DNA of 64,000 nt from Clostridia bacterium (GTDB lineage Bacteria; Bacillota; Clostridia; Acetivibrionales; DSM-27016), in NCBI GenBank assembly GCA_026414765.1, contig JAOAIJ010000021.1:1-64000 (forward strand). Direction: 5' to 3'. Position numbers and translations under genes: made by a program. Below, one piece after another: positions 8,050 to 59,680 of the stretch. The notes below the pieces were generated by a model. That model did not search any database, was not told the origin of the DNA, and worked only from the letters and a program-made list of their open reading frames with translations. The number at the start of each line of letters is the position of its first letter. Positions within the stretch are counted from its first letter, which is position 1.

Positions 8050-8416
8050 TATTGAATAAAAACTGCGATTGGAAAGAGTAGATGGTGGTTCTTTTTATAG
8101 AGAGCAGGCGGATGACAGGCAATGCTATTACAGATACCTGTGCATTATGGTGCAAGTCCTGCAGAGAATACCTTTGAAAATCATCCATGAGTTGCTACCT
8201 GAATAAATAAGTAAGGGATGCCGGCTAAAACCGTTAAGGAATGAAGTGATTAGACAAGCTGAAATACAGTTTGCAGACTACAGGCGATAACTAGTGATAG
8301 ATTGGATTACTATTGCGTAGCGCTTGAAATAGCTCTGTGATGTCATAATAAATCGGGTGGTACCGCGTGAGATATACCCTCTCGTCCCTATGTAAATAGA
8401 TCGAGAGGGTTTTTTA
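8050..8416 (+). promoter_or_regulatory. T-box riboswitch controlling ileS
   Basis: The leader carries the T-box sequence GGGTGGTACCGCG at 8355-8367. It is followed by a terminator with stem CCCTCTCG (8377-8384) / CGAGAGGG (8402-8409) and a seven-base T-run. Upstream are a long stem I (GCAGG/CCTGC inner helix) and a stem II/III region with GCCGGC and CCGTTAA. Uncharged tRNA binding through its CCA end would disrupt the terminator. The downstream gene predicts an isoleucine specifier. ATA at 8168-8170 and ATC at 8180-8182 are the candidates; by position after the GA of the specifier loop ATA fits better, but I could not settle this by hand. Confidence 0.93.
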
Positions 8417-34787: not shown

Positions 34788-34876
34788 ACAAAAGCATATG
34801 AAAGGGCAAAATCGGCGAAAGCTGATGACGCAAAGGTAAGGGTCTAAAACGTCAAGTCATGACAGCCTATCTCCAA
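34788..34876 (+). promoter_or_regulatory. Cyclic-di-GMP-I (GEMM) riboswitch
   Basis: The aptamer signature is present in order. AAAGGGCAAA (34801-34810) comes first, then a stem CGGC/GCTG capped by a GAAA tetraloop. Next is the nearly invariant GACGCAAAG (34827-34835), then GGGTCTAAA with a GTC/GAC stem and the receptor-side AGCC. These match class I c-di-GMP (GEMM) RNAs. The 3' side has only a short CAACA/TGTTG hairpin followed by TTTTA, so on/off polarity cannot be read. It controls pilC and the genes after it. The rest of the 359-base gap holds only the promoter and the pilC ribosome site. Confidence 0.85.
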
Positions 34877-34959
34877 CAGTGTTGTTTTATCTATAATGCT
34901 GATGTTCTAACTAAATATTTCACATAAAAAACAAAATTTCATACGGGGGTTAAGTATAG

Positions 34960-50509: not shown

Positions 50510-51628
50510 ATGGTTTTTGATTTTTTACGTCGCAAAAAATCCAATAATGAAATGATATGCATCGATATAGGCTATAAAAATATAAAAGTTGTGGAGGTTG
50601 ACGCAAATAAAAGCAATTCCAATATCCACATCAGTAACTATGGGATAACGGCGACTCCGAAGGAGTGCATAAAAAACGGAGCTATATATGATGTGTCACG
50701 TGTATTAGATATGATTAAGCAGGTTATATATCAGCAGCATATGAAGGCAAAAAATGCGAAGATAATTATGTCCGGTACTAATATAATTACCAGAATTTAC
50801 TTGATTGATAAAAAGTCAGGGGAAGAAAGCGATGATACAATTAAGAAAAGTATCCCGGGCTTTTTTCCACTGGATATTGACAACTATCAGATAGATTATA
50901 AAATACTTCAGACTGTATTAGACAGAGGGGTAGAAAAATACAAGGTGTTCCTCACAGCCGTTCCCAAAAAGATACTTCAGAGCTATGTAGAGGTGTTGAG
51001 AGGGTTGGATCTTAAGCCTCTTGCTGTTGATATACCAGCAAACAGTACTGCCAAGTTCTTTAACAGGGATATTGAGGTTACGGAGATGGAAGAATGGTAC
51101 CGCCAGAAGGTATATAAAAAGGTTGGTACTGAAGCCTTTGCGGTTTTGGATTTTGGATCTGAAACTACAATAGTCAATTTTTTAAATGATAAGATTCTTG
51201 AATTCAATAAGGTTATTCTTTGTGGCAGCAGCAATATTGACGAGCATCTGGCAAAAAATATGGATATAAGGCTTGACGAGGCTGAGTGGCTTAAAAAGAA
51301 ATATGGACTAAAAGCACCGAGGTATAATTCGCCTGAGGAGCACTATACTTCACATGAAATAATCACTGATTTCATAGAAAGACTTGTAAAACAGATAGCT
51401 AATTGTTTTATATTTTATCAGGAACACTGTTATGGAAAACCTATATCAAAGGTGTTCATTATCGGCGGTGGATCGCAATTGGCAGGATTGAGACAGTATT
51501 TATTCTCCGTTTTCAACATACCTGTATACCCTGTAGGATTGATGAACTTAAGAGGAGTTGAGCTGGAAAAGAATCTGGATCAGGAAAAACTGAATTATCT
51601 GATAAATTGTGTAGGTATTTCATTGTAA
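50510..51628 (+). CDS. Second PilM-type actin-like protein
   Basis: A 372-residue paralogue of PilM at 33485. The same landmarks occur: ICIDIGYKNIKVVEV, PKECIKNGAIYD, AKIIMSGTNIITRIYLIDK, FAVLDFGSETTIVNFL and VFIIGGGSQLAGLRQYL. The shared stretch PLAVDIPANSTAKFF / PVSVDIPANSVAKFF shows recent common ancestry. No pilN or pilO is next to it, so it probably works with the main operon's partners or with a second system elsewhere. It begins 173 bases after the secreted repeat gene. Confidence 0.85.
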   Translation: MVFDFLRRKKSNNEMICIDIGYKNIKVVEVDANKSNSNIHISNYGITATPKECIKNGAIYDVSRVLDMIKQVIYQQHMKAKNAKIIMSGTNIITRIYLIDKKSGEESDDTIKKSIPGFFPLDIDNYQIDYKILQTVLDRGVEKYKVFLTAVPKKILQSYVEVLRGLDLKPLAVDIPANSTAKFFNRDIEVTEMEEWYRQKVYKKVGTEAFAVLDFGSETTIVNFLNDKILEFNKVILCGSSNIDEHLAKNMDIRLDEAEWLKKKYGLKAPRYNSPEEHYTSHEIITDFIERLVKQIANCFIFYQEHCYGKPISKVFIIGGGSQLAGLRQYLFSVFNIPVYPVGLMNLRGVELEKNLDQEKLNYLINCVGISL

Positions 51629-51725
51629 AATTACTTTATGTGAATTACCTGGAAACGTCACAAAGCGTTTTACGGATAGCAGAAGGTTCACTCCTCTTTT
51701 ACATAATATTTTTTATATTTTACTG

Positions 51726-51753
51726 TTTACATTTTTCTGTAAGTTGGTATAAT
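51726..51753 (+). promoter_or_regulatory. Promoter of the hydrogenase maturation cluster
   Basis: TTTACA (51726-51731) and TATAAT (51748-51753) are 16 bases apart, with a TG dinucleotide at the extended -10 position. It stands 38 bases upstream of the TM1266-type gene. Confidence 0.65.
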
Positions 51754-51790
51754 TATTATTGTAGTTAGTTAAATAATTAACGAGGTTAAT

Positions 51791-52042
51791 ATGGAGACTG
51801 TGAACAGAGTTGCTGTCATAGGCATTGTTATTAGTAACCGTGAAGAGGTTGCAAGAAAAGTAAATGATATATTAAGTGATTTTGGAAGGATTATTGTAGG
51901 CAGGATGGGCATACCTTATAAAGAAAAGGAAATTTCCGTCATGTCAATAATAGTTGACGGAACTAATGACGAAATAGGAGCTTTAACCGGCAAACTGGGC
52001 AATATTAAGGGGATAAAGGTCAAAGTAGCATTGACATATTAA
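51791..52042 (+). CDS. TM1266-family iron-only hydrogenase system regulator
   Basis: An 83-residue protein of ferredoxin-like ACT/NikR-C-type fold. Landmarks are the N-terminal NRVAVIGIVISNREEVARKVNDIL, the middle IIVGRMGIPY and the C-terminal GALTGKLGNIKGIKVKVAL. This family, known from Thermotoga TM1266, is found beside hydE, hydF and hydG in clostridia. Its molecular role is not shown; 'regulator' is only a family name. It opens the hydrogenase maturation cluster behind a strong promoter. Confidence 0.88.
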   Translation: METVNRVAVIGIVISNREEVARKVNDILSDFGRIIVGRMGIPYKEKEISVMSIIVDGTNDEIGALTGKLGNIKGIKVKVALTY

Positions 52043-52175
52043 ACTGGCGTTTTTGGTTCTGATATCCGGTACGGGTTAATTAATTCAACTGGCACAACAG
52101 ATAGATTTATAAAAATAGAAACATTGTAATTGAATAATCTGAGGTTATGAGGGGAGTGTAAAGCCCGAAAACCAA

Positions 52176-52283
52176 GGAGATGACTTAATCCTGAGGGGAT
52201 GGTTAATTCCTAGCTGAGGGGAGAGAATGGCATTTGTTAAATATCGGCTCTTCCTGAAGAAAAACTTTCGGGAGGGGCTTTTT
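52176..52283 (+). promoter_or_regulatory. Attenuator leader A (unclassified) of the ECF gene
   Basis: A conserved-looking leader (CCTGAGGGGATGG, GAGGGGAGAG) ends in a terminator. The terminator pairs GCTCTTCCTGAA (52247-52258) with TTCGGGAGGGGC (52267-52278) and runs into TTTTT. The leader segment GGGAGAG (52219-52225) can pair instead with CTCTTCC (52248-52254) inside the terminator's left arm. That gives an antiterminator. A second copy of the same design precedes hydG. I do not recognise the aptamer class. Confidence 0.65.
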
Positions 52284-52308
52284 ATATTTAATAATTGGGG
52301 GTTGTATC

Positions 52309-52824
52309 ATGAACAAAAAAATCAGATTTATTACACGTACAGCAATTCTTTTAGCACTTGCTATTGTATTCCAGATGCTAGGGAGGTATATTCCGTTAGG
52401 ACCAAACAGTCAGTTTGTTGTGGGGCCTCTGATAAATGCATGCTTAATGGTTGCGGCAGCAATGGTCGGACTATCAGGAGGAGGAATTGTAGCATTACTG
52501 TCACCTTTTGGGGCAATTCTCACCGGAGCAGCAATTCCCTTGCCTTTTGCGCCATTTGTAGCATTAGGTAATTTTCTTCTTGTTCTATTGTTTTTCTTAT
52601 TTATGTATAGAAGCAAGATTTTGGGTCTGACACTTGGTGCTCTGGCAAAATCCGTATGGCTGTTTGCTGCAATTAAGATTTTCGTATGGGCTATGGACAT
52701 GAAAGGCAAGAAGGCGGAAATGCTGCTGTGGTCCTTTAGTTGGCCGCAGGCAATAACAGCTCTGGTTGGCGGAGTATTGGCGTTATTACTAATAAAAGTG
52801 TTGGATAAAAATATTCAAAAATAG
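52309..52824 (+). CDS. ECF transporter S-component-like membrane protein
   Basis: A 171-residue protein with about five to six membrane segments, from RTAILLALAIVFQML to ALVGGVLALLLIKVL. The ECF substrate-binding (S) signature is seen in the first segment and in the AMVGLSGGGIVALLSPFGAI repeat. S-components bind a vitamin or cofactor precursor and use a shared energizing module encoded elsewhere. The ligand is unknown; its place in the hydrogenase maturation cluster suggests a link to that pathway. The ATG has GGGGG nine bases upstream and follows attenuator A. Confidence 0.75.
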   Translation: MNKKIRFITRTAILLALAIVFQMLGRYIPLGPNSQFVVGPLINACLMVAAAMVGLSGGGIVALLSPFGAILTGAAIPLPFAPFVALGNFLLVLLFFLFMYRSKILGLTLGALAKSVWLFAAIKIFVWAMDMKGKKAEMLLWSFSWPQAITALVGGVLALLLIKVLDKNIQK

Positions 52825-52854
52825 AAATTTTGAACTTAAGCTTGTAAATGAATA

Positions 52855-52955
52855 CCTTGCCTGACGGGACGGAGTGAATCTTAACGGAGGGAGAGCGGAT
52901 ATGTCTTGTTTTCTGTGGCTCTTTCTGTAATTTTCAGAGGAGCCATTTTTATTTT
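52855..52955 (+). promoter_or_regulatory. Attenuator leader B (unclassified) of hydG
   Basis: The leader repeats the design of attenuator A: CCTGACGGGACGGAG, TCTTAACGGAGGGAGAG, then a terminator TGGCTCTTTCTG (52916-52927) / CAGAGGAGCCA (52935-52945) with a T-rich tail. GGGAGAGC (52889-52896) can pair with GCTCTTTC (52918-52925) in place of the terminator. Spacing between the switching segments is nearly the same as in copy A (22 and 21 bases). Confidence 0.65.
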
Positions 52956-53011
52956 GCATTATTTGACTCCTACTGTGGAGGCTGAGGTGAAATATCCAAG
53001 GGGGAGTTATT

Positions 53012-54379
53012 ATGGTTGATTACATCAATGAAGAACAGATATGCAAGTCTTTGGAGGTTGGTAAAAGTACCTCGAAGGAAGAGGTAAGGGATATACTTAA
53101 GAAAGCAGAAGAATGTAAGGGTATTGATATGGATGAAGTATCCAAGCTGCTTAATGTAACGGATATGGATTTGCTGACTGAGATTTATGAAACTGCAAGC
53201 TTTATTAAGAACAAGGTATATGGAAAAAGGGTTGTGCTCTTTGCACCGCTGTATACAAGTAATGAATGCACAAATAACTGCCTTTACTGTGGCTTTCGTA
53301 AAGACAATAAGGAACTGCACCGTAAGACACTGACTATTGAAGAAACAGTAAGCGAAGCTAAGGCTATTGAAGCCCAAGGACATAAGAGGCTATTGCTTAT
53401 TTGCGGCGAGCATCCTGGAAAAACCGGTGCAGTGCACATAAGAGAAGCAATGGAAGCTATATACAAAAACGTGGATATCCGTAGGATAAACGTTGAAGCT
53501 GCACCTATGAAAACAGAAGAATACAAAGAGCTGAAAAAAGCCGGTATCGGTACTTATGTAATCTTTCAGGAAACGTATAACAGGGAAGTTTATAAAAAAA
53601 TGCACCCTGTGGGGCTTAAAGCTGATTATGATTGGAGAATTACTGCCATAGACCGTGCATTTGAAGCCGGGATAGATGATGTAGGTGTGGGAGCCTTACT
53701 TGGGCTCTACGATTATAGGTTTGATGTACTTGGTCTGCTAATGCATGTGAAAAGTTTTGAAAAAAGATATGGTGTAGGACCTCATACCATATCCGTACCG
53801 AGAATGAGGCCTGCTTTGGGGTCAGCCCTTGAAAAAATACCCTACAGGGTCAATGACCAGGAATTTAAGAAAATAGTCGCTATTTACAGACTTGCTGTTC
53901 CTTACACAGGAATTATACTTTCTACCAGAGAAAATGCTGAAATGAGGGATGAACTTTTAAGCATAGGAGTAACTCAGATAAGTGCAGGTTCCAAAACAAG
54001 TCCTGGAGGATATGTAGCGGAAGAAGAAAAAGCGGACCAGTTCGCTGTCAGCGATCATAGAAACCTGCCTAAAATGCTGGAAAGCATATGCGAAAATGGC
54101 TATATTCCAAGCTTTTGTACTGCCTGCTACAGAAGATGCAGGACCGGGGAAGCTTTTATGGAGTACGCCAAGGAGGGGGAAATACATGAATTTTGCCAGC
54201 CTAATGCGATCCTTACATTCAAGGAAAATCTTATTGATTACGGGACTGAGTTTTTAAGAGTCAAAGGCGATAAAATTATTGATAAGGCATTAATGGAGAT
54301 AGAAGACCCCAAAATGAGAAGTGCAACTATAGAGAGGCTTAAAGAAATAGAGCTGGGAAAAAGGGATTTGTATTTTTAA
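53012..54379 (+). CDS. hydG: [FeFe]-hydrogenase maturase HydG (tyrosine lyase)
   Basis: A 455-residue radical-SAM enzyme of the ThiH/HydG family. The SAM cluster motif CTNNCLYC holds C86, C90 and C93. The HydG-specific C-terminal cluster motif CX2CX22C is complete at C369, C372 and C395 (FCTACYRRC...FCQPN). HydG cleaves tyrosine to yield the CO and CN- ligands on an Fe synthon for the H-cluster. A strong GGGGGAG precedes the ATG. It follows attenuator B and lies 82 bases upstream of hydE. Confidence 0.97.
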   Translation: MVDYINEEQICKSLEVGKSTSKEEVRDILKKAEECKGIDMDEVSKLLNVTDMDLLTEIYETASFIKNKVYGKRVVLFAPLYTSNECTNNCLYCGFRKDNKELHRKTLTIEETVSEAKAIEAQGHKRLLLICGEHPGKTGAVHIREAMEAIYKNVDIRRINVEAAPMKTEEYKELKKAGIGTYVIFQETYNREVYKKMHPVGLKADYDWRITAIDRAFEAGIDDVGVGALLGLYDYRFDVLGLLMHVKSFEKRYGVGPHTISVPRMRPALGSALEKIPYRVNDQEFKKIVAIYRLAVPYTGIILSTRENAEMRDELLSIGVTQISAGSKTSPGGYVAEEEKADQFAVSDHRNLPKMLESICENGYIPSFCTACYRRCRTGEAFMEYAKEGEIHEFCQPNAILTFKENLIDYGTEFLRVKGDKIIDKALMEIEDPKMRSATIERLKEIELGKRDLYF

Positions 54380-54461: not shown

Positions 54462-55751
54462 TTGGAAAATAAGTACTTTCTAATACTTGCAAGGAATACA
54501 GCTCAGATGCTGATGCTTGACAAGGCTTTGAAACTGAATGGAATTGAAACCGATCTTGTGCCCGCTCCTCCGGAGTCAGGTTCTGTATGTGCTATTGCAG
54601 TAAAAATACCGGGAGAGCGTCTTGGAATTGCAAAAAAACTGATAATCGAAAACAAAATAGAAGTAAGTAATATATACGAAGATAAAAAATTCAAACTTCA
54701 GGGTTTTATAAGTAAAAAACTTGGTCAGATGATTACTGCGGACTTTCTGAGTATTCTTAAAAAAATAGAGGCAGGAGAGGAGCTTGAAAAAAGAGATGTT
54801 ATGTATCTCCTCTCTACTGAAAAGGAAAAAGAAATCCATACAATTATGAATGTGGCGGATAAGATCAGAAAAGAAATGGTCGGGGACGTTGTAGAAATAA
54901 GAGGTGCTATAGAGTTTTCGAACTACTGCAGGAAGAACTGCAACTATTGCGGATTAGCAGGCTCAAATTCCGGGGTTCAGCGATACAGAATGACAGAGGA
55001 AGAAATAATGGAAGCTGTAGATCATATTCATGGACTGGGAATGAGGACGGTTATTTTACAGTCGGGTGAAGATATGGTTTGGACGACTGAAAGGCTTATT
55101 ACACTAATAAAACAAATAAAAGAAAAAACAGGTATGAGGGTAACTTTAAGTGTAGGAGAAAAAAGTAGGGAAGAGTATACAGCCTTAAAAGAGGCCGGTG
55201 CGGATAATTTCCTTTTGAAGATAGAAACCACGAATCCAAGATTATTCAGTGAGATTCATCCTGATGATGATTTTTATTACAGGCTTCAGTGCTCTAAATG
55301 GTTAAAGGAGCTGGGGTACATAAACGGTTCGGGGAATATCATCGGTCTGCCGGGTCAGACAACAGAAGATATTGCCGGTGATATTCTTTATTTCAAAGAT
55401 ATGGGAATAAACATGATTGGTATCGGACCTTTTATACCCGCAAAGGGAAGCAGCTATGAAAAACATCCGCATGGAGACATTGAGCTGACTTTACGGGTTG
55501 TGGCAGTTACCAGGATAGTATGCAAAAAAGTATATATTCCATCAACTACGGCTCTTGCATCGTTAGATAAGGATGCACAGGTCAGGGCTTTACAGTGGGG
55601 GGCTAATACAATAATGCTAATAAATACTCCCGAGAAATACAGAGGAAGTTACAGGATATATGACAATAAGAATATGGTAGACATGGAAGCTGCCGTCTAT
55701 GCAGTAAAAAAAGCCGGGAGAAAGCTACCGGCATATCTGAAGATCAGTTGA
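54462..55751 (+). CDS. hydE: [FeFe]-hydrogenase maturase HydE with N-terminal DUF3343-like domain
   Basis: A 429-residue protein, about 80 longer than ordinary HydE (near 350). Residues 1-76 look like a DUF3343 domain (putative sulfur/selenium carrier): NTAQMLMLDKALKLNGIETDLVPAPPE, then SGSVCAIAV with a retained cysteine (C43). Residues 130-429 are HydE: radical-SAM motif CRKNCNYC (C156, C160, C163), LQSGEDMVWT, IGLPGQTTEDI, GIGPFIPAKGS. HydE builds the dithiomethylamine-bearing precursor from HydG's Fe product. The start is TTG with AAAGGGTG upstream. The fusion is in one uninterrupted frame. Confidence 0.92.
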   Translation: MENKYFLILARNTAQMLMLDKALKLNGIETDLVPAPPESGSVCAIAVKIPGERLGIAKKLIIENKIEVSNIYEDKKFKLQGFISKKLGQMITADFLSILKKIEAGEELEKRDVMYLLSTEKEKEIHTIMNVADKIRKEMVGDVVEIRGAIEFSNYCRKNCNYCGLAGSNSGVQRYRMTEEEIMEAVDHIHGLGMRTVILQSGEDMVWTTERLITLIKQIKEKTGMRVTLSVGEKSREEYTALKEAGADNFLLKIETTNPRLFSEIHPDDDFYYRLQCSKWLKELGYINGSGNIIGLPGQTTEDIAGDILYFKDMGINMIGIGPFIPAKGSSYEKHPHGDIELTLRVVAVTRIVCKKVYIPSTTALASLDKDAQVRALQWGANTIMLINTPEKYRGSYRIYDNKNMVDMEAAVYAVKKAGRKLPAYLKIS

Positions 55752-55872: not shown

Positions 55873-57270
55873 ATGAGAATAGAGCGCGATTTATTAGGTG
55901 AGAAAAAAATACCTGGGAACTGTTACTACGGTATTCATACTGCGAGGGCAATAGAAAACTTCAATATCAGCGGAAGGCCGATTCATAAAGAACTGGTCAG
56001 GGCATTGGTTGTTGTAAAAAAGGCAGCAGCTATTACAAACGAAAATATCGGGCTTTTGGATACAAATATATCTGGAGCAATTCAAGTGGCATGTGATGAA
56101 ATACTTTCCGGACAACTAAGCGATCAGTTTGTAGTGGATTGCCTACAGGGTGGAGCGGGGACATCAGCAAATATGAATACCAATGAAGTGATTGCTAACA
56201 GAGCAATTGAATTGATGGGTGGCAGCAAAGGCGAATATGGACTGGTTCATCCCCTGGATCACGTGAACATGTCCCAGTCGACAAATGATGTTTTCCCAAC
56301 AGCTGTAAGGCTAGCTGCAATAAGACTTCTTAAGCCGGTAAGCGAGCTGTTTGCAGAATTACAAAATGCATTGCAGGAGAAGGAAGAAGAATATTCGTCA
56401 ATTTTGAAAGTCGGAAGAACTCAACTTCAGGATGCCGTTCCCATACTGCTCGGACAGGAATTCGGGGCCTGGGCTCAAGCTGTGGCAAGGGACAGATGGA
56501 GATTGTACAAAGCGGAAGAAAGACTGAGGCAGGTCAACATAGGAGGTACTGCAGTAGGTACAGGCTTGAATGCAGACAAGAAATATATATTCTGGATGAT
56601 AGAAAAGTTAAGGGATTTGACAGGCTTGGGGTTGGCTAGAGCAGAACATATGATGGATGTTACCCAGAATACTGATATTTTTGTTGAGGTTTCCGGGCTG
56701 CTGAAAACTGCTGCGGTAAACCTTTCGAAAATAGCAAGCGATATAAGACTGCTTTCATCAGGACCTAAAGCGGGTTTTGGAGAGTTGAAGCTGAGGCCTG
56801 TACAGACAGGATCTTCAATCATGCCAGGTAAGGTAAACCCTGTAATACCTGAGGCTGTTAATCAGATTGCTTTTCAGATTATGGGCAATGATGTTGCCAT
56901 TACTATAGCAGCACAAGCCGGTCAGCTGGAATTGAATGCCTTCCTGCCACTTATTGCTCATAATCTTTTTGAGATGCTGGACTTGATGAAAAACGGCCTG
57001 AGAATTTTTATAGATAAATGTATTAAAGGTATAGAAGCGGATAGAGAGCGCTGTAAGGAACAGGTTGATAATAGTCTGATTCTTGCTGCTGCACTTGTGG
57101 GACATATAGGATACGAAAAAGCTTCAGAAGTAGCTAAAAAATCCTTAGCTACAGGAAGGACGATAAAAGGAGTTTTGATAGAAGAAAACATAATGGATGA
57201 AAATTCTATTGAACGGATACTCAATGCTGTCCATATGACCAAGCCGGGAATACCGGGGATAAAGAGATAG
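55873..57270 (+). CDS. aspA: Aspartate ammonia-lyase within the hydrogenase maturation cluster
   Basis: A 465-residue class II fumarase/aspartase. The signature GSSIMPGKVNPVIPE is intact. The N-terminal KIPGNCYYGIHTARAIENF and the SQSTNDVFPTAVR segment fit aspartase better than fumarase C. It releases fumarate and ammonia from aspartate. It lies between hydE and hydF, five bases before the hydF ribosome site. Such a lyase is often found with hydE/F/G in Firmicutes; the ammonia may feed the bridging amine of the H-cluster dithiolate. Confidence 0.93.
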   Translation: MRIERDLLGEKKIPGNCYYGIHTARAIENFNISGRPIHKELVRALVVVKKAAAITNENIGLLDTNISGAIQVACDEILSGQLSDQFVVDCLQGGAGTSANMNTNEVIANRAIELMGGSKGEYGLVHPLDHVNMSQSTNDVFPTAVRLAAIRLLKPVSELFAELQNALQEKEEEYSSILKVGRTQLQDAVPILLGQEFGAWAQAVARDRWRLYKAEERLRQVNIGGTAVGTGLNADKKYIFWMIEKLRDLTGLGLARAEHMMDVTQNTDIFVEVSGLLKTAAVNLSKIASDIRLLSSGPKAGFGELKLRPVQTGSSIMPGKVNPVIPEAVNQIAFQIMGNDVAITIAAQAGQLELNAFLPLIAHNLFEMLDLMKNGLRIFIDKCIKGIEADRERCKEQVDNSLILAAALVGHIGYEKASEVAKKSLATGRTIKGVLIEENIMDENSIERILNAVHMTKPGIPGIKR

Positions 57271-57281
57271 GGGGTATGAAA

Positions 57282-58514
57282 ATGAATGCTACACCTGTGG
57301 GTAATCGCCTGCATATATCGGTTTTCGGAAGAAGAAATGCAGGGAAAAGCAGTCTGGTAAATGCTCTTACCGGGCAGGAGCTTGCAGTGGTATCAGATGT
57401 TCCGGGTACTACAACAGACCCTGTATACAAAACAATGGAGCTTCTTCCTATTGGGCCTGTGGTAATAATAGACACCGCTGGTCTGGACGATGAGGGTGAA
57501 TTAGGAAACTTAAGAGTGGAAAAAACATATGATGTGATGAGGAAAACAAATCTTGCAATGATCGTGGTAAGTGCTGTTGATGGTATTACAGGCTTTGAAG
57601 CTGATCTGATTGAGAAAATGAAGAATAAGCGTATTACGGTAATTGGCGTTATTAACAAAAGTGATTTGAGCAGGTCAGTAGAGGAAAACTTCAGTGGTTA
57701 TGCTTCAAAATATGGTATTCCTTTTATAAAGGTAAGCTCAAAAACAGGTGAAGGAATAGAAAAGCTAAAAGAAGTAATCGGACAGAGTGCAAGATTTGAT
57801 GACATACAGCTGAGTCTGGTGGGAGATCTGGTCAAACCAGGAGATTTTGTAGTTTTAGTGACACCTATTGATAAGGCAGCACCTAAAGGGAGGCTGATAC
57901 TACCTCAACAACAGACTATCAGGGATATAATAGAATCTGATGCGATAGCAGTGGTTACAAAGGAGCATGAGCTGAGAGAAACACTGGACAATCTTGCCAG
58001 GAAGCCATCTGTGGTTATTACCGACTCACAGGCTTTTATGAAAGTATCTGCAGATACACCTAAGGAGATACTGCTTACATCCTTTTCTATACTTTTTGCG
58101 AGACAAAAGGGTGAATTGATAGAAATGGTGAGGGGACTGAAGGAAATTGAAAGGTTGAAACCAGGCGGCAAAGTTCTCGTAGTTGAAGGTTGTACACATC
58201 ACAGACAGGCTGATGATATCGGTAAAGTCAAGATACCCAGATGGATAAGGCAGATAGCGGGAGGAGATATAGAATTCGAATGGGCCAGCGGCAATTACTT
58301 TCCCAAGGATATAGGAAAGTTCAATGCTATAGTACATTGTGGAGGTTGTATGCTAAACAGGCAGGAAATGCAATATAGGATAAATTATGCAAAAGATAAT
58401 AATATCGCTATTACAAACTATGGAATGTTGATAGCTTATGTACAAGGGATTCTGCAAAGAGCATTGGAACCATTTCCTGCAGCATCAATAATACTGGAAG
58501 AATTGGGTACATAA
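57282..58514 (+). CDS. hydF: [FeFe]-hydrogenase maturation GTPase HydF
   Basis: A 410-residue protein. The GTPase domain (1-170) has GRRNAGKS (16-23), a G3 DTAGLDDEGELG and a NKSD G4. The C-terminal cluster-binding domain has CTHH (C304, H306) and HCGGC (H352, C353, C356), the CxH...HCxxC iron-sulfur ligand set of HydF. HydF is the scaffold on which the di-iron subcluster is assembled and from which it is given to the hydrogenase. I start at ATG 57282, seven bases after GGGGG; the ATG at 57276 is too close to that site. Confidence 0.97.
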   Translation: MNATPVGNRLHISVFGRRNAGKSSLVNALTGQELAVVSDVPGTTTDPVYKTMELLPIGPVVIIDTAGLDDEGELGNLRVEKTYDVMRKTNLAMIVVSAVDGITGFEADLIEKMKNKRITVIGVINKSDLSRSVEENFSGYASKYGIPFIKVSSKTGEGIEKLKEVIGQSARFDDIQLSLVGDLVKPGDFVVLVTPIDKAAPKGRLILPQQQTIRDIIESDAIAVVTKEHELRETLDNLARKPSVVITDSQAFMKVSADTPKEILLTSFSILFARQKGELIEMVRGLKEIERLKPGGKVLVVEGCTHHRQADDIGKVKIPRWIRQIAGGDIEFEWASGNYFPKDIGKFNAIVHCGGCMLNRQEMQYRINYAKDNNIAITNYGMLIAYVQGILQRALEPFPAASIILEELGT

Positions 58515-58534: not shown

Positions 58535-59680
58535 ATGATATATCTTGACAATGCAGCAACATCATACCCTAAACCCAACAGAGTATATGAAGAAATCGAC
58601 AGATGCATGAGGGAATACTGTGCAAATCCCGGACGTGGAGGACATGCAATGTCTATAGCATCGGGAAAGGCAGTTCTTGAAGCCAGAGAAGTAATATGTA
58701 AATTTTTTAGTATTAAAAATCCTATGCAGCTGTGTTTTACAAAAAACGCCACAGAGTCTCTAAATATAGCAATCAAGAGTTGTTTGCGGGAGAATATCCA
58801 TGTCATTACCACAAGTATGGAACACAACTCCGTAATCAGGCCGCTGAAAACCCTGGAGAAAGAAAATGGCGCAGAGATCACGATAGTAAAAGGGGATGAA
58901 TATGGCGAAATAGATCCTGATGAAGTGAAGAAAAATATAAGGAAGAATACAAAGCTTATTGCACTGACACTGTCTTCCAATGTCAACGGTATAGTAATGC
59001 CTGTAAAGGAAATAGGAAAAATCGCACGTGAGAATGAAATAATCTTTTTAGTTGACGCTTCACAGGGAGCGGGTGTGTTTAACATAGATGTAGAGGATAT
59101 GAATATAGATATGCTGGCATTTCCAGGTCATAAAGGTTTGCTTGGCCCACAGGGAACAGGCGGTCTGTATGCCCGGGAAGGACTGGATCTGAAACCTATT
59201 ATGCAGGGTGGGACAGGTAGCAATTCCGAAAATATTTTTCAGCCTGAAATTATGCCGGATTTACTGGAAAGCGGTACATTGAATACTCCAGGTATTGTAG
59301 GCCTGGGCTATGGGGTAGATTTTATAAGCAGCTTTGGTCTTGATAACTTGAAAAAATATAAATATATGCTTGTAAATAGATTTTTTGAAGGTCTAAGAGA
59401 TATCAGGAGAATAAGAATCTATAGTAAAAACGATATGGAAAAGAATTCCGGCATAGTAGCTGTAAATTTTGATGACATAGATTCTTCCGAGATAAGCTAT
59501 GCATTAGATAAAGTATATGGAATAGCTACCCGTCCGGGTTTGCACTGTGCTCCTCTGGCACATCAGACTCTTGGGACAGTAAATAGCGGAATCGTACGCT
59601 TCAGCGTGGGATGTTTTAACACGATTGAAGAAATAGACATTACACTGGAAGCATTAAGAGAGATCTCGCAAAGTCTTTAA
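58535..59680 (+). CDS. Class-V aminotransferase, cysteine desulfurase-like (EF2568 type)
   Basis: A 381-residue PLP enzyme. The N-terminal YLDNAATSYPKP, the Schiff-base lysine in FPGHKGLLGPQGTGGLY and the catalytic cysteine in RPGLHCAPLAHQTLGT match the cysteine desulfurase-like family named for Enterococcus EF2568. In other genomes this family is linked to selenium metabolism genes and DUF3343 proteins. Here it is the last gene of the hydrogenase maturation cluster, 20 bases after hydF, and HydE carries a DUF3343-like domain. It is a probable sulfur (or selenium) mobilising enzyme; the partner is unproven. Confidence 0.88.
   Translation: MIYLDNAATSYPKPNRVYEEIDRCMREYCANPGRGGHAMSIASGKAVLEAREVICKFFSIKNPMQLCFTKNATESLNIAIKSCLRENIHVITTSMEHNSVIRPLKTLEKENGAEITIVKGDEYGEIDPDEVKKNIRKNTKLIALTLSSNVNGIVMPVKEIGKIARENEIIFLVDASQGAGVFNIDVEDMNIDMLAFPGHKGLLGPQGTGGLYAREGLDLKPIMQGGTGSNSENIFQPEIMPDLLESGTLNTPGIVGLGYGVDFISSFGLDNLKKYKYMLVNRFFEGLRDIRRIRIYSKNDMEKNSGIVAVNFDDIDSSEISYALDKVYGIATRPGLHCAPLAHQTLGTVNSGIVRFSVGCFNTIEEIDITLEALREISQSL

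Follow-up and report, generated by a model that had tools for sequence, protein, structure and literature searches.

A conserved, covarying leader RNA of [FeFe]-hydrogenase maturation genes is present in two copies in one clostridial gene cluster

The 64,000-nucleotide stretch of clostridial DNA analyzed here (the window; contig JAOAIJ010000021.1) carries a cluster of genes for the maturation of the [FeFe]-hydrogenase H-cluster, in which leader A precedes the gene for an energy-coupling factor (ECF) transporter S-component and leader B precedes hydG. Both leaders belong to an RNA family that is widespread and covarying in H-cluster maturation genes and has no match in Rfam 15. We consider the chances even that a single conserved cis-regulatory RNA occurs as both A and B, controls these genes by premature termination and is read by the protein TM1266. 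Regulation in vivo, the direction of switching, binding of TM1266 and the signal are what we infer from the comparison of sequences.

A preliminary description of positions 52176-52955 had pointed to sequence blocks common to the leaders of the ECF S-component gene and hydG, and these blocks are indeed present. It had also proposed that each leader forms either an intrinsic terminator or a competing helix of 7 bp in A and 8 bp in B, which agrees with the predicted terminators (Table 1) and duplexes: in leader A, 52219-52225 pairs with 52248-52254 (7 bp, -8.8 kcal/mol), and in leader B the purine strand pairs with 52918-52925 (8 bp, -10.8 kcal/mol). The terminator left arms start at 52246 (A) and 52917 (B), and the distance from the start of the purine segment to the start of the arm is 28 nt in both, as expected from the near-equal separation noted before. 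The element of A already begins at 52138, upstream of the interval described, with a second hairpin that had not been seen. Besides this upstream hairpin, the repeated R-A/A-R module (R, purine), the leader peptide and the wide distribution had been overlooked. In leader B, no upstream hairpin (D1) could be recognized; the minimum free energy fold of its D2 hairpin shows the basal pairs as well as the CG/CG and GGA/UCU pairs known from the family. The folding energy of the whole leaders was unremarkable, with z-scores of -1.7 and -1.9 for A and -0.2 for B. As folding energy is uninformative, the case for leaders A and B rests on the comparison with relatives.

The relatives fall into two groups. 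Leaders of group 1, found at hydG loci of named genomes and at ECF-gene loci, carry the same element, CCUGACGAGAcGGA..UCUUAUCGAAGGGGGA, and in many of them a second hairpin, UCURAG...RAGGA, lies upstream, as in leader A at 52138-52178. The D2-type hairpin stands alone in B and in L034, L096 and L097 (L and G numbers are handles of loci and genomes). Group 2 (Alkaliphilus, Tepidibacter, Thermotalea and similar loci) gave weak matches to R1, a covariance model of nine leaders with A included and B left out, at a consistent place upstream of TM1266-hydG. Its form is UCUGAc-stem-GAGGA ... CURA-UUGC-AA-GGAU..UCU-GA-GCAA-AA-GGURAG, with the terminator next, and the architecture common to groups 1 and 2 is YCU-RA-stem-RA(n)GGA-loop-UCU-RA-stem'-RA-GGR. 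Several group-1 first hairpins also contain the inner module, for example GAUG-UA-GGA..UCU-GA-CGUC in L038, so that we read the group-1 leader as one hairpin repeated in tandem. The inner-stem pairing GA/UC, which was used in R1, was superseded by GGA/UCU once group 2 had been seen.

Covariation was evaluated in two alignments. In A5 (21 rows, 21 pairs), 91.1% of the cells are paired and two-sided changes occur at 13/21 pairs; covariation was 0.345 compared to 0.168 in shuffled alignments, and none of 500 shuffles reached the observed value. Two U-G wobbles beside R-A steps are U-G in all 21 rows. In A7, which holds the second hairpin only (28 rows), 92.5% of the cells are paired, covariation was 0.665 compared to 0.262 (0/500 shuffles), and 5 or 6 standard pair types were observed at each of four inner-stem pairs; the number of A7 pairs with two-sided change was not above that of the shuffles (6 compared to 5.1, 137/500). 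When partners were slid by one to three columns as a control, the signal was mostly lost. The rows of A1, A2 and A4-A7 were selected for showing the motif, with shuffles and slides as controls, and the percentages of paired cells consequently lean towards structure. Thirteen of the 28 A7 rows were taken from 90 TM1266 loci, with sequence windows centered on TM1266. Comparison with relatives by covariance models was the check named in the preliminary description, and it showed covariation of the hairpins above that of shuffles together with placement at hyd, TM1266 and ECF loci. Neither outcome that the description had named as refuting, a confident Rfam match or alternate helices not conserved in relatives, was observed.

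This placement was consistent in searches of increasing width. In the 4.56 Mb genome of the window, R1 matched only A (E 1.2e-10, seed) and B (E 1e-4, non-seed) at E<=0.1. Across the order, matches were obtained in 22/58 genomes; 24 of the 29 matches have TM1266, ECF or hyd genes in their locus, and the five without such genes have E-values of 0.03 or more. Seed leaders account for 11 of the 29. The order matches L098-L100, L106 and L107 were discounted. Across the class, R1 matched in 13/391 genomes at E<=0.02, and matches L110-L113 were discounted by eye. R2 gave 23 matches at E<=0.05 in the 391 class genomes, 14 of them at hyd, TM1266 or ECF loci, where three (L109, L114 and L116) duplicate A5 seed sequences. 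The R2 class matches include leaders of hydF (L123, L124), leaders of hydG without intervening TM1266 (L116, L118, L121, L132) and leaders before TM1266-hydE, TM1266-hydF and TM1266-ECF. Taken over different genomes, all three maturase genes are preceded by the element. Discounted among them were L126-L131, L133 and L134; L127 lies near a cysteine desulfurase-like frame. In 398 phylum genomes R2 gave 12 matches at E<=0.01, nine at hyd, TM1266 or ECF loci, while L308 and L311 were discounted since by eye they look like coding sequence. Model E-values are rough, and the class and phylum searches were strictly filtered, which makes these numbers lower bounds.

R3, a model of the second hairpin alone, was seeded with the A7 rows, mainly from TM1266-positive genomes. 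On the 90 TM1266 loci, which are a part of the TM1266 places among the matches listed for the class, it matched 75 times at E<=5, in 55 of the loci, compared to about 5 matches expected by chance from the E-values, and 69/75 lie on the sense strand less than 600 nt upstream of TM1266, hydE, hydG or hydF. Two matches within 120 nt were observed in 11/55 R3-positive loci. Conservation, covariation and consistent placement in relatives thus bear out the earlier proposal of an attenuator of an unrecognized class tied to H-cluster maturation genes.

As side observations, the paired R3 matches (L136, L140, L142, L146, L154, L163, L167, L194, L197, L203 and L214) are tandem copies of the second-hairpin type; in L142, CUGA-CGCC-GA...AA-GGCG-GAAGG follows the first copy. 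L301 (G740:C1 2458240-2458335, minus strand), a phylum match, is a well-formed and apparently real copy with a terminator-like hairpin; its neighbors are ParB-like and transposase-like frames (by eye), and the locus contains no hyd gene.

An expression platform, either terminator/antiterminator or occlusion of the Shine-Dalgarno (SD) sequence, is predicted from the leaders. In group 1 (n=21), the mean energy of the duplex between purine strand and terminator arm was -10.8 kcal/mol with the own arms compared to -8.1 with shuffled arms. In group 2 (15/16 leaders, as L072 yielded no terminator), using mononucleotide shuffles and an improved terminator rule, it was -9.6 kcal/mol compared to -6.6. 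When own partners were compared with swapped partners in the 21 group-1 leaders, co-change of the alternate helix was detected with p about 0.02; the terminator finder of the swap test chose wrong hairpins for some leaders in both groups. The competing helix, as judged from these duplexes, is real as complementarity, yet is not itself strongly covarying; strong covariation sits in the upstream hairpins and not in the alternate helix. The purine strand is found just before the hydG start codon in L121, L132, L136, L157 and L183 and, by eye, in L196. Since the strand can either pair with the left arm of the terminator or is located at a ribosome-binding site, a folded, bound hairpin would be expected to turn expression off.

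In the proposed mechanism, the sensor would be a hairpin interrupted by two internal loops in which purine-A steps oppose each other. A related hairpin often lies before it, and B retains only the second of the two. In the stabilized sensor the 3' purine strand (GRGGG) would be held in basal pairs and could not pair with the left arm of the terminator, so that the terminator would form and the genes would be off. In group 1 the held strand would also be unavailable as the ribosome-binding site of a short leader open reading frame (ORF), whose predicted stop codon lies in the terminator left arm. In the open sensor, the purine strand or a translating ribosome would block the terminator and the genes would be on. 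In those relatives where the strand directly precedes the start codon of hydG, translation would be blocked by the same fold. TM1266 is the best guess for the hairpin binder, and would report metal, H-cluster or hydrogenase status. A wider proposal is put forward tentatively, with somewhat less than even confidence: TM1266 would be the first of a new family of RNA-binding attenuation proteins, and would sense H-cluster or metal status, clamp hairpins with R-A modules and shut off its own gene, hydG, hydE, hydF and the genes of partner importers, with one clade relaying the signal via a ~9-codon Asn-Ser-Ser-stop peptide.

TM1266 (83 residues) has a NikR-C-like domain, and its only PDB match, 2nzc, is titled 'hypothetical protein'; no DNA-binding domain could be recognized in domain-profile searches. 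The family is present in 236/391 class genomes. Nearly all motif-positive genomes have TM1266, but as the gene is common anyway, an argument from motif-positive genomes alone was dropped and co-occurrence was judged from TM1266-negative genomes instead. The element (R3, E<=0.1) was identified at 16/30 hydG loci of TM1266-positive genomes compared to 2/35 of TM1266-negative genomes (Fisher p 1.9e-5), where the positive loci are the best 30 of 51 listed, from 60 TM1266-positive genomes, and the negative set comprises all 35 hydG loci found in 109 of 154 negatives. When four partial hydG genes are left out, the numbers are 16/30 and 2/31, and without the four loci that are A7 rows (L121, L132, L136, L203) they are 13/27 and 1/34 (p 3e-5). 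Within eight shared families, the element was found in 5/10 TM1266-positive and 1/21 negative cases (stratified permutation p 0.008). By gene content, the element tends to go with TM1266, and of the metabolite or protein sensing proposed in the preliminary description, this tracking of the gene favors a protein partner. Often a genome also has another TM1266-like paralogue, which is more divergent and scores below or near the family cut-off, for example in G001, G028, G037 and G471.

Several observations weigh against control by TM1266 through this element. No R3 match was found at 14/30 TM1266-positive hydG loci at E<=0.1, nor at 35/90 TM1266 loci at E<=5, and the seeding of R3 may favor the TM1266-positive side of the comparison. 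R3 detects neither A, in which D2 is divergent, nor B, which is without D1; we think that this is due to one base fewer on the 3' side of group 1. The TM1266-negative genomes G244 and G071 retain the element; they are 93% and 97% complete, other members of their genera have TM1266, and a loose search for TM1266 gave nothing in G244 and, in G071, one match of 30 residues with E 0.43. Only 5/15 group-2 duplexes individually beat 95% of their own shuffles, and no co-change of the alternate helix was detected in group 2 (p 0.75). The earlier claim that compensating changes keep this helix is therefore weakly upheld in group 1 and not in group 2. The peptide is absent or changed in 9/27 group-1 leaders, including B and also A, where a Gly-Ser-Ser ending occurs only with a TTG start. 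Finally, in L117 (G201:C92 55872-55957, minus strand) the element precedes an NMT1/THI5-like ATP-binding cassette (ABC) importer with no hyd gene nearby (its binding protein was identified by Pfam, whereas the frames for permease and ATPase rest on weak matches or inspection by eye), and this placement fits a metabolite sensor as well as TM1266.

The element could instead be a true riboswitch, with a small molecule or ion as the direct ligand of the hairpins and TM1266 as no more than a neighbor. Candidate ligands would be Fe2+, an H-cluster precursor, a one-carbon or amine intermediate, or a compound imported by the ECF and ABC transporters. We regard this as a considerable possibility, although on balance we doubt it. 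The conserved unpaired purines and U-G wobbles, the two unrelated importers preceded by the element (ECF S-component and NMT1-like ABC transporter) and its retention in the two genomes where TM1266 was not found are consistent with direct binding. Known aptamers occur in single and tandem forms, as do the hairpins described here. Against this, the element tracks TM1266 even within families, and the domain is very small and repetitive, which would be more like the binding site of an oligomer than like most aptamers.

A primary role of the ribosome and a leader peptide was considered as well, in which translation of a ~9-codon peptide would place or stall the ribosome on the terminator arm and the hairpins would set access only. 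Group-1 leaders have, at a near-constant distance after the purine strand GGGGGA, a start codon and a short ORF that ends inside the terminator. In 18 of 27 leaders, which include close relatives and are not independent, this ORF starts with ATG, encodes 8, 9 or 11 residues and stops with UGA. These 18 peptides end in Asn-Ser-Ser (15), Asp-Ser-Ser (2) or Gly-Ser-Ser (1), and their two Ser codons vary at the third position only (TCT TCT in 7, TCT TCC in 9, TCC TCC in 1 and TCA TCA in 1). In L009 (TCA TCA TGA) the peptide is retained and no terminator could be seen downstream by eye. Although this conservation speaks for such a role, the (N/D/G)-Ser-Ser-stop ending was not seen by eye in the group-2, hydF or pre-hydG forms, where the hairpin is present, and Ser-Ser-stop is missing from B and seven further group-1 leaders, A having the TTG start only. 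Peptide-driven attenuation as the primary mechanism is therefore considered unlikely. From its occurrence, the peptide is probably a feature of one subgroup, which couples ribosome access to termination there, perhaps as an added layer.

It is highly improbable that A and B are ordinary constitutive intra-operon terminators with chance purine/pyrimidine complementarity and no regulation: purine-rich SD-like strings and terminators are common and the fold z-scores are unremarkable, but the hairpins show compensatory covariation and their placement is sense-strand and gene-specific.

The genes around the two leaders are listed together with the parts of the leaders in Table 1. A consensus scan for promoters of the plus strand at 51600-53100 gave, besides the site before TM1266, one further site at 52281, past terminator A, and the number of promoter-like sites was no better than in shuffles. 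Aspartate ammonia-lyase can provide the nitrogen of the dithiomethylamine ligand and aspA is often located near hyd genes (PMC11736057), which fits the aspA-like gene in the hyd cluster of the window. In C. thermocellum, hydG and a TM1266-like gene (Clo1313_1571, 1572) are included in a table of predicted Rex sites, which also contains an energy-coupling factor transport protein (PMC8457756). A cysteine desulfurase gene repeatedly adjoins the ECF S-component gene, with or without hyd genes (L006, L010, L014, L016, L017, L025, L029-L031). What this S-component transports may be connected with sulfur or cofactor chemistry. Elsewhere in the window, a T-box leader (RF00230, 100.1 bits) is located at 8056-8392 and a cyclic di-GMP (c-di-GMP)-I riboswitch aptamer (65.4 bits) at 34795-34878, both on the plus strand.

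Table 1. Parts of leaders A and B and the surrounding genes, with positions in the window
Feature	Positions	Strand	Basis and remarks
Leader A hairpin D1, UCU-GA-GGUU...GAGGG...CCCGA...AACC-AA-GGA	52138..52178	+	Alignment with relatives; predicted fold agrees
Leader A hairpin D2, CCU-GA-...-GA-GGG, inner part divergent	52190..52220	+	R1 match 52135-52224 (A is a seed); fold
Leader A purine strand GGGGAGAG	52218..52225	+	3' side of D2, SD-like, antiterminator strand
Leader A candidate leader peptide MLNIGSS-stop, TTG start	52234..52257	+	UGA within terminator left arm
Leader A intrinsic terminator, 14 bp, then T run	52246..52279	+	Terminator scan and fold, -19.6 kcal/mol
Leader B hairpin D2, CCU-GA-CG-...GGA..UCU..-CG-GA-GGG	52860..52891	+	R1 match 52810-52895 (B outside seed)
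Leader B purine strand GGGAGAGC	52889..52896	+	SD-like and antiterminator strand
Leader B short ORF MSCFLWLFL-stop	52901..52930	+	Offset after SD-like segment as in relatives; Ser-Ser-stop lost
Leader B intrinsic terminator, T-rich up to 52955	52916..52945	+	Fold, -15.8 kcal/mol; missed by terminator scan
Candidate sigma-70-like promoter TTTACA-16-TATAAT, extended TG	51726..51753	+	Before TM1266; consensus scan, weak evidence
TM1266-family 'iron-only hydrogenase system putative regulator', 83 aa	51791..52042	+	TIGR03959 116.9 bits, PF21699, NikR_C 23.5 bits
ECF transporter S-component, orphan	52309..52824	+	PF12822
hydG, [FeFe]-hydrogenase H-cluster radical S-adenosylmethionine (SAM) maturase	53012..54379	+	TIGR03955 514.9 bits
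hydE with N-terminal Se/S-carrier-like extension	54462..55751	+	TIGR03956 308.8 bits; PF11823
Aspartate ammonia-lyase-like (aspA-like) gene	55873..57270	+	NF008909 690.7 bits
hydF, H-cluster maturation GTPase	57276..58514	+	TIGR03918 568.4 bits
Cysteine desulfurase family protein	58535..59680	+	TIGR01977 500 bits

In the literature searched, we found no description of how a cell commits to building the costly H-cluster. With a defined RNA element, naturally present twice in one gene cluster, and a candidate sensor protein, there would be a direct handle on this control, so that what the cell measures before assembly of [FeFe]-hydrogenase becomes testable in vitro. The same control would also extend to an ECF importer and, in one genome, to an ABC importer, both of them orphans.

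The absence of a match to a known riboswitch class, as reported in the preliminary description, agrees with the Rfam 15 scans of the window, the leaders and related loci. In the window, neither leader matched at gathering threshold, the T-box and c-di-GMP-I elements lying elsewhere. Permissive scanning of leaders A and B gave chance-level matches, such as L10_leader with 16.4 bits against a threshold of 44. In 20 loci scanned permissively at E<=0.5, one tRNA was found elsewhere, and BTnc201 (29 bits against 105) partly overlapped the element in L193. Among 17 loci, only thiamine pyrophosphate (TPP) riboswitches were detected, in three Nitrospirota loci. The superficial CCUGA...AGGGA likeness to the TPP riboswitch (RF00059) and these Nitrospirota elements had suggested a degenerate TPP riboswitch, which was rejected as the clostridial leaders do not match RF00059. 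The Nitrospirota TPP riboswitches (L064 3180-3298, L069 314-432, L070 3309-3427) lie directly upstream of HydG-like genes (50-52% identity). Inspection by eye of L070 shows ThiG-, ThiE- and ThiC-like frames after the HydG-like gene, which is therefore probably involved in thiamine synthesis there, and the enzyme may serve as ThiH.

In the literature on hydrogenase or hyd genes with a riboswitch or RNA motif, no such element was found by title or abstract opening, and an earlier description is possible; nothing on a target of TM1266 was found by titles and abstract openings. The accessible text of PMC12456013 names cobalamin riboswitches only. Tandem tungsten-cofactor riboswitches before hydrogenase genes are mentioned in a review (PMC9481103); this class was not found here by the Rfam scans.

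The element shares with the metabolite riboswitches that use terminator platforms (among them TPP, flavin mononucleotide, cobalamin, molybdenum/tungsten cofactor (Moco/Wco), c-di-GMP) a conserved, covarying 5' leader structure upstream of functionally related genes, terminator/antiterminator or SD sequestration, and a placement before pathway and transporter genes. It differs from them in having no Rfam family match and in its repeated R-A/A-R modules. Leader-peptide attenuators, of the trp, tna and erm types, are alike in having a short ORF with the stop codon in a terminator arm, but here, in one subgroup only, there is no regulatory codon run, just two Ser codons before the stop. RNAs read by proteins as antiterminators or attenuators include the ANTAR/EutV sites and those of PyrR, TRAP and RAT. 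In the dual-hairpin site of ANTAR proteins, each hairpin has a hexanucleotide loop with A1 and G4, a definition which the loops of the element do not fit, as the inner loops in A7 vary in length and sequence. No RNA role was found for the NikR-C-like family to which TM1266 belongs. With the protein-read attenuators as a whole, the element has in common the hairpins beside a terminator and a possible partner protein encoded alongside: TM1266 (TIGR03959), which is named only as a putative regulator, is encoded beside the element in many loci.

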